51,741 bases of DNA from Caldanaerobacter subterraneus. GTDB taxonomy: Bacteria > Bacillota > Thermoanaerobacteria > Thermoanaerobacterales > Thermoanaerobacteraceae. Location of the stretch: positions 1-51,741 of the forward strand of contig NZ_SLWU01000019.1 in assembly GCF_004345675.1 (NCBI RefSeq), in the 5' to 3' direction. This document shows positions 37,925-41,774 of this stretch, piece by piece (position 1 is the stretch's first letter; each line of letters begins with the position of its first letter). The notes beneath the pieces were generated by a model. The model was not told the origin of the DNA and searched no databases. It saw nothing but the letters and a program-made list of their open reading frames with translations. A program made the translations under genes and the position numbers.

Positions 37925-37958
37925 AAACGCGGCAAAGTTTCGTACTTTGCCGCATTTT
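37925..37958. terminator. Terminator of the WalJ-like gene
   Basis: Perfect stem GCGGCAAAGT (37929-37938) / ACTTTGCCGC (37944-37953) with T-runs on both strands. Confidence 0.85.
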
Positions 37959-38737
37959 TATATTTCCACTACATCGCTTTCAATATTTCTTAACGCCATA
38001 CGCACTTCAAATTTAACTCCCGATTTTTTAAGCATATTCGTTACAGTAGTAAAGGCAAGCTCAGGCCTATTATTATTTTGGCTCAAATGGCCTAAAAAAG
38101 CTATCCCTATAGCTTTCATTTTGAACAGCTTCATGAGAGCATCTGCAGCAGCATCATTAGAAAGATGTCCTAAATTAGATAAAATCCTTGCTTTAAGAGG
38201 CCAAGGATATGAACCATTAATAAGCATTTGTATGTCATGATTTGCTTCTAAAAGCACAATATCTGAATCTATAAGATTGCTTGCAACACCTCTTGTCATA
38301 TAGCCCAAATCAGTTGCAATGGAAATTTTTTTGCTACCTGCTTTAAACGAAAAACCCACTGGTTCTGCAGCATCATGGGGTTTTTTAAAAGGCATTATCT
38401 TTACACAACCAATTTCAAATTCTTCTCCTGTAGTAAAATAAAGCTTGTTTTTTTCTGGAACTTCTTTTATATCCTTCTCCATTGCTTCCCATGTGGCCTT
38501 ATTGGCATATATAGGTATATTGTATCTTCTAGAAAGTACACCGGCTCCTAGAATATGGTCTTTATGTTCATGAGTTATAAGAATGGCAGATAGACTTCTT
38601 GGATTTACCCCTATGTTTAATAAAGCTTTTTCAATTGTTCTGCCACTTAAACCCGCATCAACAAGTATATGTACATCTTTATGATTTATGTAAATAGCGT
38701 TTCCACTACTTCCTGACCTCAAGGAACAAAACTTCAT
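37958..38737 (-). CDS. Metallo-beta-lactamase-fold hydrolase (WalJ/YycJ-like)
   Basis: About 259 aa. Opens with FCSLRSGSSGNAIYI; metal site HEHKDHILGA (HxHxDH, about residues 59-64), then KPHDAAEPVGF and ATDLGYMT, LLEANHD, LSNLGHLSNDAAA. This matches the YycJ/WalJ family, 5'-3' DNA exonuclease-like proteins linked to replication and wall control in Firmicutes. The walR/walK genes are not adjacent. The start is either ATG 38737 or TTG 38743; neither has an SD at normal distance (see the hairpin at 38745-38763). Confidence 0.9.
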   Translation of the reverse strand: MKFCSLRSGSSGNAIYINHKDVHILVDAGLSGRTIEKALLNIGVNPRSLSAILITHEHKDHILGAGVLSRRYNIPIYANKATWEAMEKDIKEVPEKNKLYFTTGEEFEIGCVKIMPFKKPHDAAEPVGFSFKAGSKKISIATDLGYMTRGVASNLIDSDIVLLEANHDIQMLINGSYPWPLKARILSNLGHLSNDAAADALMKLFKMKAIGIAFLGHLSQNNNRPELAFTTVTNMLKKSGVKFEVRMALRNIESDVVEI

Positions 38738-38744
38738 AGCCAAT

Positions 38745-38772
38745 ATACCCGCATTGCGGGTATCCCCCTTTC
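38745..38772 (-). promoter_or_regulatory. Hairpin between SD and start codon of the WalJ-like gene
   Basis: SD-like GAAAGGGGG (38764-38772, minus strand) is followed by the perfect hairpin ATACCCGC / GCGGGTAT (38745-38763, 3-nt loop) and then ATTGGCT-ATG. Folding removes 19 nt and would leave about 7 nt between SD and ATG. Confidence 0.6.
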
Positions 38773-38805
38773 TCCAGTCTGTACACCTAAATTATACCAC
38801 AAAAA

Positions 38806-39044
38806 TTATCCACATCCTTCTTGTGTGTAAATTCTTTCATAGAAGATATACATAGAAGATATAATTCACTTCTCTTACTTCTTTAATTTCCAACAACAAG
38901 TTATCAACATATTCACAACTACTTGTGGATAATTTAAAATTTAATTGTGTTTTGCTATTGTCTCTTCTCTTTTGTTTAATTCGCTATGCCATAAAAATTG
39001 AGGGACCCTCTTATTATAAGTGGATCCCTTACACTTTATCCACA
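38806..39044. other. Cluster of DnaA boxes in an intergenic region
   Basis: Perfect TTATCCACA at 38806-38814 (plus), 38924-38932 (minus) and 39036-39044 (plus), and a one-mismatch TTATCAACA at 38901-38909. All lie in the AT-rich 338-bp gap between the WalJ-like gene and the MetS-like gene. No other gene was found in this gap. Confidence 0.7.
38996..39030 (-). terminator. Terminator downstream of the NSS transporter operon
   Basis: AGGGATCC and GGGTCCCT pair with one G-U across an AT-rich loop; the minus strand then reads CAATTTTTATGG. A second, GC-rich stem GGCTGCGGA/TCCGCAGCC (39051-39071) lies just before it, with an A-tract on one side and a T-run on the plus strand. Confidence 0.65.
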
Positions 39045-39075
39045 GTCTGAGGCTGCGGAAAATCCGCAGCCTTTT

Positions 39076-39177
39076 TTATTTCGCTTGGTGTTTTAAAAGG
39101 TTGCTCAGGGTATAATATACTCCTCCCAGTATTACGGCCCAGGCGAGGACCATGAAAAACAATGCGCTTCCGGACAT
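39076..39177 (-). CDS. MetS-like small subunit of an NSS transporter
   Basis: 33 aa, MSGSALFFMVLAWAVILG then GVYYTLSNLLKHQAK: one membrane helix with a short basic tail. Strong SD AAAAGGAGG precedes the ATG, and it starts 14 nt after the NSS transporter stop. Tiny single-span proteins next to NSS genes (MetS with MetP in Corynebacterium) are needed for methionine/alanine transport, so the call rests on size, helix and position. A 77-codon frame overlapping it on the same strand is spurious. Confidence 0.85.
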   Translation of the reverse strand: MSGSALFFMVLAWAVILGGVYYTLSNLLKHQAK

Positions 39178-39191
39178 GCTTACGCCTCCTT

Positions 39192-40769
39192 TTAGGCTTT
39201 CGCGCCTTTTTGTGTCTGAGCGCTGCCGTATTTCCTCTGAATGGTGTAGTAGGCTTCAGCAAAACCTATGACAAGTATTGCCAGGAGCAGTACCCGCGCA
39301 CCCTGGACCCAGGGAACAAGCTCCGGCATTTTTTCGACAAAGCTGGGTACCCACTTGAAATAACCGTTCTGTATATAGCTCTTCGTGGAGAATATGAGCA
39401 GTATCACGATCGAAAGCGGCGTAACGAATTTGATCATCAGGTTGAAAAACCCTGAGGACACCTTCCAGTAGCTGCCTCTGTTCATCTCTTCGAGCGCGTT
39501 CTTTTCGCCGAACAACCAGCCCACCACCAGAGCTTCAATAAGGCCCACGACTACCAGGAAGTAACTACCCACCCAGTTGTCGAGTTCGGTGAGGAAGACC
39601 AGTTCACTAGTCTTGGTTAAAATGGGTTCTAAGGCCGACGGCAGACCTACCAGGATATAGAACCCGAATACCAGTATAGCCCCGACCTTTCTCGGTATAT
39701 TTAAGTCCTCTTCGAGCATGGCTATCAGGTAGTTGTACATCGCTATAGCCGACGTGAAGCCTGCGAAAAACAGTACCAGGAACCATAAGGCACCGAAAAA
39801 TTGGCCACCCGCCATCATACGGAACACGTTGGGAAGAGCGATGAAGGAAAGCCCGACACCGGCTGCTATACCTTCAGGGCCGAGGAAGGTGTAGGCTATC
39901 GGAATGGCTATGGTGCCGCCCAGGATGACTTCAGCAAATTCGTTCAGGAATACCGTGGTCGTAGCGGAAAGAACAATGTCTTCATCAGGCTTGAGATAAG
40001 AAGCGTAGTTCTGGATGATGCCCATACCAAGGGACAGCGTGAAGAATATCTGGCCTGCAGCAGCCAAAGCCGATTGCCAATTCAGTTCGTTCCACTTCGG
40101 AGTCCAGAGGTAGTCGAGGCCTTTAATCGGCGACCAGTCGGGATTTATAGGCGAACCGAGGGTCAGCGCCCTTATGATCAAAATGAAGCCGAGCACGTAG
40201 AGCAGCAGCATCATTACCTTGGCCCATGCCTCGATACCCTTCTGGACACCGCGACTGAGAGCAAACGCCAGAAGAGCGAGCGCTATCACCCAAAATGTAA
40301 TCGACATGACTGGATTCTGGATATAGTTCACGAAGATCTCACCGGTAGATTTACTCGCATCCATGTAGCCGCCGGTCAGGGACAGGTAGCTGTAGCCAAG
40401 GGTCCACCCAATGATCTGGGTATAGTATGCGTTTACAAGGGTCGTCACTGAAAACACCAGCATACCAGCTAGGGCACCTATTATTGCTGCAGAGGAATGC
40501 CCGAGCTTTTCTTTGGCCTGCAAGTAGGTCATGCAGCCAACGGTCCCATGCCCGTACTTACCGCCGTAGCGGCCCTGCATCCACTCAACATACATGAGGG
40601 GTATACCAAGGACTAACAGTGCAGCAAAATAGGGTAGCATGAATGCGCCGCCGCCGTTTTTGGCAGCCTGGTAAGGGAATCTCCAAAAGTTGCCGAGACC
40701 TATGGCGTTCCCGGCCATAGCAAGTATAAGTCCTAGTTTAGTTCCCCAAGTCTCTCTATTTTCCGCCAT
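39192..40769 (-). CDS. Sodium-dependent amino-acid symporter (NSS/SNF family)
   Basis: About 525 aa integral membrane protein with roughly twelve helices. The N-terminus RETWGTKLGLILAMAGNAIGLGNFWRFPYQ is the family hallmark, the sodium- and substrate-binding unwound TM1. GGAFMLPYFAALLVLGIPLMYVEW is TM2. Substrate probably a neutral amino acid; not determinable from sequence alone. ATG 40769 follows GGAGGGG; the frame from 40838 lacks an SD. Codons are clearly GC-richer than in surrounding genes, suggesting transfer. Confidence 0.93.
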   Translation of the reverse strand: MAENRETWGTKLGLILAMAGNAIGLGNFWRFPYQAAKNGGGAFMLPYFAALLVLGIPLMYVEWMQGRYGGKYGHGTVGCMTYLQAKEKLGHSSAAIIGALAGMLVFSVTTLVNAYYTQIIGWTLGYSYLSLTGGYMDASKSTGEIFVNYIQNPVMSITFWVIALALLAFALSRGVQKGIEAWAKVMMLLLYVLGFILIIRALTLGSPINPDWSPIKGLDYLWTPKWNELNWQSALAAAGQIFFTLSLGMGIIQNYASYLKPDEDIVLSATTTVFLNEFAEVILGGTIAIPIAYTFLGPEGIAAGVGLSFIALPNVFRMMAGGQFFGALWFLVLFFAGFTSAIAMYNYLIAMLEEDLNIPRKVGAILVFGFYILVGLPSALEPILTKTSELVFLTELDNWVGSYFLVVVGLIEALVVGWLFGEKNALEEMNRGSYWKVSSGFFNLMIKFVTPLSIVILLIFSTKSYIQNGYFKWVPSFVEKMPELVPWVQGARVLLLAILVIGFAEAYYTIQRKYGSAQTQKGAKA

Positions 40770-41078
40770 AACACCCCTCCTTTTCATTAATTTAAATCTG
40801 GATATAATAAATATATCATAGTTCTGTCTTTTTTTCAATGATTGTTAAATATTTGTCAATATATTCATTTGGAAATTTTCTGAAATCTCAGTTAAAGAAT
40901 CACATCCGTTGTTATGGTTTTTATTTGGAATTTAAGCCTTCCAATGGCGTTTTCATAAAATCTATCATGTATTTTGCTTCACCATTTAGATAGGAAATTA
41001 TCAGTATACTTTCCAACAAAATTTTTCTATGATATAATAAATTGCAATAAAAAATTTGGAAGATTGGGAGGAGATACT
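40770..41078. other. Divergent gap between NSS transporter and membrane protein genes
   Basis: 309 bp, AT-rich in contrast to the GC-richer genes on both sides. On the plus strand a -10 TATAAT (41033-41038) with a weak TTTCCA 17 bp upstream probably drives the membrane protein. A minus-strand promoter for the transporter was not clearly identified. No other gene seen. Confidence 0.5.
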
Positions 41079-41774
41079 TTGGCAAACGAAGTATTTGAAA
41101 CACTCATTTCTATCGAAAAATGGACAAAGCTCACCGATATCCCTGCATACCACCTTGATAAGATAAAAAATGAAGTTGAAAAGGCCAAAGAACGCTACCG
41201 GAATTTCGATCCGAGTGGGATAAAAAGCGACGAACAGAAAAGAGTCTACGAGGCTCTGGTAAAAAAAGGCAGAGAGCTGGAGAAAAAATTGAACTTCAAA
41301 AAAAGCGAAATAAAGGATCAGGTCTATTCCTACCTGCGATACGCCAACGCCGCCTACTTCGATTTCATGAACGCCCTGACTCCTCTGAATATTGGGATTC
41401 GGTTTTTCACCTTCACATCAGCCTTGTTCATAGCCCTTTCCCCTCCATTTCTGGGAGCAGCTTTTTCGTTGGTCTTTGTGGTGCCCATACTCCTTGGCCT
41501 CAATGCCCTCAAAAAAAGGCGAGCTGTAGGCTACAGCCTGGCAATGCTAATAGTACCTGTATCTTTCGCAGTATCGACCATGTGGCTGCGCTTTGGATAC
41601 AGGGTCCTGGTCGACTACCAGACTGTGCTGTTGGAAACCATAAAGGCTACAGGAAAATCTCCTGAGGTTGCACGCCTTTTTATAACAGTTCCACCGTTAC
41701 TCTCTCTCCTGCTTCTCTTTTCGACAGGGTATATGGCCTACCAGCTCACCAGAGCCAGAGATATGCTCATATAG
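41079..41774 (+). CDS. Membrane protein of unknown function
   Basis: About 231 aa. A soluble, charged, coiled-coil-like N-terminal half (ISIEKWTKLTDIPAYHLDKIKNEVEKAKERY) is followed by four probable membrane helices (FTFTSALFIALSPPFLGAAF, FVVPILLGLNAL, YSLAMLIVPVSFAVSTMWL, VPPLLSLLLLFSTGYMA). No family recognised. A TTG start at 41079 fits the SD GGGAGGAG; the longer frame from 40974 crosses the promoter region. Codon use is GC-rich like the transporter, so both probably arrived together. Confidence 0.75.
   Translation: MANEVFETLISIEKWTKLTDIPAYHLDKIKNEVEKAKERYRNFDPSGIKSDEQKRVYEALVKKGRELEKKLNFKKSEIKDQVYSYLRYANAAYFDFMNALTPLNIGIRFFTFTSALFIALSPPFLGAAFSLVFVVPILLGLNALKKRRAVGYSLAMLIVPVSFAVSTMWLRFGYRVLVDYQTVLLETIKATGKSPEVARLFITVPPLLSLLLLFSTGYMAYQLTRARDMLI

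Follow-up and report, generated by a model that had tools for sequence, protein, structure and literature searches.

The occurrence of three perfect DnaA boxes in one intergenic gap of Caldanaerobacter subterraneus raises the question of what the initiator protein would do at this site. The window (the whole stretch of DNA that was analysed, 51,741 nucleotides) contains the perfect box TTATCCACA only in the gap upstream of yycJ; all three copies are located there, and none is present in the rest of the 51.7 kb. The gap and its surroundings contain the following features:

37958-38743, minus strand: yycJ/walJ, MBL-fold hydrolase, 261 aa (Pfam Lactamase_B_2, 6e-19)
38744-38775, minus strand: yycJ leader, GGGGG then hairpin ATACCCGC-AAT-GCGGGTAT, just before the start codon (from sequence and folding)
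38791-38799, minus strand: predicted extended -10 of yycJ, TGGTATAAT, 59 bp before the ATG (from pattern and conserved spacing)
38806-38830, minus strand: module B, TTACACACAAGAAGGATGTGGATAA, with a DnaA box at its end (38806-38814), conserved in the family
38806-38814, plus strand: perfect DnaA box TTATCCACA (exact match)
38901-38932, minus strand: module A, a triad of DnaA boxes, at the same place in 20 of 20 family genomes
38901-38909, plus strand: one-mismatch box TTATCAACA (pattern match)
38924-38932, minus strand: perfect DnaA box TTATCCACA (exact match)
39036-39044, plus strand: perfect TTATCCACA peculiar to the window genome, with no counterpart in the aligned gaps of relatives
39049-39073, no strand assigned: intrinsic-terminator-like hairpin of 11 pairs, separating the transporter gene from the box region

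The three perfect boxes and the single-mismatch copy reported by the first-pass annotation are exact at these positions, and the cluster adjoins a yycJ/walJ-like gene as described, the gap lying directly upstream of yycJ. The strand of the flanking genes does not switch, since both yycJ (37958-38743) and the sodium-dependent transporter gene (39192-40838) are on the minus strand. The genome, which is Thermoanaerobacter-like (79 contigs; 2,575,920 bp), contains 51 perfect boxes, a total not above that of the reversed-pattern control (56), so that the unusual part is the clustering of the boxes and not their count. Three or more perfect boxes fell within 239 bp in only 0.06% of 20,000 simulations with uniform placement, which is a simple null but one of which the conservation across genera is independent; a triple of this kind was indeed not to be expected by chance. 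Genome-wide, the sole other group of three perfect boxes equally close is located at dnaA (C12:34158-34380), and neither the box counts nor inspection of other groups revealed comparable clusters scattered over the genome.

Conservation in relatives, which had been set beforehand as a test, was found in all 20 genomes of the family sample, which represents three genera (g1, g2, and g3) and includes nine more genomes of the window genome's own genus. In each of them, a perfect TTATCCACA is present 195-433 bp upstream of the yycJ ATG and is followed 23 bp further on by a facing box or a one-base-changed copy, although these counts take related genomes as separate and the independent contrasts are the three genera. 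Among the individual boxes, conservation extends to those at 38924, 38901, and (as a box variant) 38806 but not to that at 39036.

The conserved element comprises about 140 bases just upstream of yycJ and is organized in two modules. In the direction of yycJ, module A consists of TTATCCACA (38932-38924), 6 bp, TGTGAATA (38917-38910), and then TGTTGATAA (38909-38901); in opposite-strand reading, TGTGAATA is a partial box, TATTCACA, and TGTTGATAA is the box TTATCAACA. The aligned core of the family is TTATCCACA-N6-TGTGnATA-TGTKGATAA, i.e., one box facing two adjoining boxes. Module B is located 104-126 bp downstream of box A, a distance conserved in the family, and its box is perfect in the window and TTATTCACA or TTATCAACA in most relatives. 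In the family alignment, no stretch of the gap other than box A (TTATCCACA) has nine consecutive invariant bases. Invariant runs consist mostly of box letters; after box A, the best ones fall in the remainder of module A, in box B, and in a GGGGnnnCCC close to the ribosome site. The two largest genera (g1 and g2) have an identity of 0.79 across module A and of 0.30 outside it.

Among the genomes sampled, the element is specific to the family. The exact 32-bp pattern TTATCCACA-N14-TGTKGATAA occurs at one site per genome in 19 of the 20 genomes (reversed control, 0), always upstream of yycJ except in G006, where the copy at yycJ has one change and a second, exact copy is located elsewhere; G003 is one change away from the pattern. 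A profile of the element, built from 15 of the 20 family sequences, matches at yycJ in all 20 genomes with E values of 2.5e-17 or better. Among 24 genomes of the order, strong profile matches were obtained only at yycJ of the family and at the extra copy of G006, with none in family f2, and among 398 sampled genomes of the phylum, the 32-bp pattern with at most one mismatch was found in family members only. At 75 yycJ loci outside the family, there are 2 perfect boxes versus 0.8 expected and 16 boxes with at most one mismatch versus 12.9. This background level rules out DnaA boxes at yycJ as a general rule, and any such control would be confined to the family.

The link between the element and yycJ is never broken in the family, whereas its upstream side is occupied by at least five different genes (identified by eye from their translations), and in each case synteny is lost beyond the element as seen from yycJ. 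The upstream gene encodes a sodium transporter in the window and a flavin oxidoreductase in most Thermoanaerobacter; its place is taken by cas genes in T. thermocopriae and by an ABC transporter, a divergent 2-oxoacid oxidoreductase, or a hydrogenase-like protein in other genomes. In the window, the neighbors are a GC-rich pair (39192-41774) of a sodium-dependent transporter, with a GC content of about 0.50 versus 0.34-0.40 around it, and a 266-aa protein without a match in Pfam or NCBIfam. An import of the boxes together with the GC-richer genes at 39076-41774, as proposed earlier, is contradicted by Thermoanaerobacter sp. A7A (L062), where homologs of the pair (87% and 94% identical) also lie upstream of yycJ but with cas2-like and oxidoreductase genes between them and the element; the pair in the window therefore adjoins the element only secondarily, and other relatives have the element beside quite different genes.

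The yycJ gene of the window starts with TTG or with an ATG two codons downstream, and its product is 92% identical to homologs of Thermoanaerobacter sp. A7A and T. wiegelii and about 43-50% identical to YycJ-like proteins of other Firmicutes. In Bacillus, YycJ/WalJ acts in mismatch repair as a 5'-3' dsDNA exonuclease and influences how division is coordinated with replication (PMC4801191, PMC9836290, PMC8034640). A TATAAT-like hexamer is located 57-59 bp before the ATG in most genomes and is preceded by TG in Thermoanaerobacter; a good -35 was not found for this predicted -10, and a generic promoter scan did not return the hexamer. The distance from the end of box B to the hexamer is 50-55 bp in 17 of the 20 genomes, G015 being included via one of several candidates, and the exceptions are G003 (46 bp), G011 (76 bp), and the window (9 bp). 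The leader hairpin is perfect in the window and weak or absent in the other genera, with GGGGnnnCCC invariant in the family. The leader also contains a six-codon frame (ATG CGG GTA TAT TGG CTA TGA) with an ATGA overlap with yycJ.

The boxes are best explained as a cis-acting DnaA-binding element that controls yycJ (walJ), a reading to which we assign a probability of about 0.57. Control of the gene by DnaA would likely be the main role and origin-proximal DnaA-binding capacity the second. The reading is suggested because the element is conserved in two modules, fixed 5' of yycJ and origin-proximal; because its link to yycJ outlasts at least five changes of the upstream neighbor; because the spacing between box B and a conserved -10-like hexamer is nearly constant in most relatives; and because TTATCAACA and TTATCCACA are the box forms found most often in the window genome's own oriC. 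The earlier proposal of a putative DnaA-binding regulatory or titration cluster survives two of the checks set for it: the boxes are conserved in 20 of 20 genomes, and no similar clusters are spread over the whole genome.

As judged from the arrangement of the sites, DnaA would assemble on the triad, with its one box facing two, and contact box B, and the DNA between them would be bent or bridged. The spacing in most relatives, with the end of box B 50-55 bp upstream of the -10, would suit activation; in the window, about 41 bp (four helical turns) fewer separate the two, which would place box B in the -35 region of the predicted promoter, a position suited to repression. Both modes of action are documented in B. 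subtilis, where DnaA activates sda and represses other promoters (PMC4447404). The nuclease gene would then be transcribed in step with the level or nucleotide state of DnaA, i.e., with the replication cycle, and the element, replicated soon after initiation, would also bind some DnaA. Against control of yycJ by DnaA stand the lack of a good -35 for the predicted -10, the deviating spacing in the window and G011 and its ambiguity in G015, and the extra copy of G006 without yycJ and -10.

In the literature searched, no paper links DnaA boxes to yycJ, and none describes clusters outside oriC in Thermoanaerobacter. If confirmed, the element would provide a DnaA target in thermophiles that is simple and, in most genomes, single-copy, and it would connect replication initiation directly with a repair/division protein. 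According to Pei et al. in 2007, thermophile DnaA reportedly needs neighboring boxes at high temperature.

The arrangement resembles known systems in part. The B. subtilis clusters outside oriC (upstream of yydA/yyzF, ywcI, ywlC, sda-yqeG, and trmE, as well as gcp) are likewise intergenic, grouped, and away from oriC; several are near promoters, and the one at yydA, at position 4113012, is likewise some 100 kb away from oriC (PMC4447404). They differ in being located at other genes, with more sites each, whereas the yycJ element combines a fixed triad with a single distant site; yycJ is not among the locations of the eight strong B. subtilis regions given in PMC4447404. A B. subtilis cluster is also located near rlmH, which in most relatives checked lies about 40-80 kb from yycJ and in G011 far from it; the two genes are thus not adjacent, and a link of the element to rlmH was rejected. 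In the window genome, PF02590 (rlmH) matches twice, side by side and on opposite strands (G000:C15:2927-3776), as it does in three other Thermoanaerobacter genomes and in neither of the other two genera. Grouped boxes upstream of a promoter, as predicted at yycJ, are also found at the DnaA-controlled B. subtilis sda and at the purH-type double boxes of E. coli. In E. coli, the sites are pairs with a spacing of 2-3 bp (PMC11317965), whereas at yycJ a gap of 6 bp separates one box from two adjoining boxes that face it, and a further site follows 104-126 bp on. Like the yycJ element, datA and DARS1/DARS2 of E. coli are small non-coding DnaA-box loci away from oriC, but datA/DARS loci are characterized by a change in the nucleotide state of DnaA with IHF/Fis, a dependence described for datA and DARS2.

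A possible though less probable explanation is a locus for titration of DnaA or for control of its state, comparable to the B. subtilis clusters or E. coli datA/DARS, whose link to yycJ is incidental and which would bind DnaA soon after fork passage and restrain re-initiation. This would agree with the origin-proximal position of the element in all ten complete relatives, where yycJ maps to one replichore or the other, about 54-185 kb away from dnaA (and is always oriented with fork movement), and with the early initiation caused by joint deletion of six B. subtilis clusters outside oriC (PMC5295017, PMC13220808). However, the three or four boxes compare with 4-11 sites in the strong B. subtilis regions outside oriC (PMC4447404), the element stayed with yycJ through at least five changes of upstream neighbor, and a pure sink would not be expected to keep a nearly constant distance to the -10.

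The best evidence suggesting a role of the element besides yycJ is the second copy in G006, a stretch of 145 bp with 88% identity that is located between pabA- and cobS-like genes at 1.89 Mb (L164 1402-1545, about G006:C1:1891501-1891644). Neither yycJ nor a -10 accompanies it, which shows that the element can occur apart from the promoter. The modules of the two copies differ at about 2 of 110 positions and the spacers at about 15 of 46 (hand count; Fisher p ~1e-7). Since the modules were kept while the spacer diverged, both copies look constrained, which suggests that they are kept for what they bind and fits a titration locus; patchy gene conversion may be an alternative cause of this pattern.

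It is quite improbable that the motif merely resembles DnaA boxes and serves another DNA-binding protein or acts as an RNA hairpin. Module A does form an inverted repeat, whose 9-bp box arms are perfect in genera g2 and g3, but the second arm of Thermoanaerobacter, TGTTGATAA, breaks the stem and is yet a DnaA-box variant common in the same oriC. Moreover, the element lies upstream of the predicted -10, and an RNA element was rejected because no Rfam family scored above the gathering cut-off.

Still less probable is a displaced or remnant piece of an origin or a secondary origin. The first-pass annotation doubted that the site is the replication origin itself and asked for the location of dnaA and dnaN: both are on contig C12 (dnaA, Pfam E 4e-78; TIGR00362 9e-181), with eleven boxes (at most one mismatch) in the 354 bp before dnaA, whereas the yycJ element is on C19, and the distance of yycJ from dnaA in complete relatives likewise supports that doubt. 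Its suggestion of a remnant origin fails. The dnaA-dnaN gap of the family keeps AT-rich DNA and TACTACTACTATT-type repeats, the usual DnaA-trio signature (identified by eye), but at the yycJ element neither a trio-like repeat nor a recognizable unwinding region was seen by eye, dnaA and dnaN are not adjacent, and there is no switch in strand or skew; on these grounds, an origin or secondary origin at yycJ was rejected. What is present at yycJ are grouped boxes off oriC that are conserved beyond chance.

A point in favor of an origin comes from the sister family f3: its yycJ gap lacks the element, and the profile of the element instead matches best in oriC, at the dnaA-dnaN gap (E 2e-5 and 9e-5), where the three boxes have the order and spacing seen at yycJ. 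This gap differs from the yycJ element, which has no trio repeat or recognizable unwinding region, in that it adjoins dnaA, and the likeness may reflect either descent or convergence on one box arrangement. The f3 spacing reads WTATCCACATATCCACA-N6-TGTGGATAW (L200 1508-1551, L201 1505-1548); the dnaA-dnaN gap of the window genome's own family does not have it. An origin-type triad of the f3 kind before yycJ might tie expression of the mismatch-repair exonuclease and division coordinator directly to the initiator, in which case repair capacity would follow the replication cycle, but we consider this specific proposal doubtful.

Chance clustering of an AT-rich 9-mer has a negligible probability, given the simulations and a box A kept in 20 of 20 genomes against a background identity of about 30% between genera, which rules out chance as the source of module A, and may apply at most to the box at 39036 without a conserved counterpart.

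Other box groups of the window genome were also recorded. A tandem triple (G000:C54; L016 3054-3084) is located inside a DUF1284-like gene and recurs in most complete relatives, and the group at C6:92458 is inside the coding sequence of a SpoVB-like protein (both named by eye); conservation of these two groups may reflect coding constraint. An intergenic group of tandem boxes (TTTTCCACA, TTATTCACA, and TTATCCACATTATCCACA; L013 6575-6635, G000:C6:20574-20634) is located about 100 bp before an amino-acid ABC transporter operon, and its double box recurs in several complete relatives.
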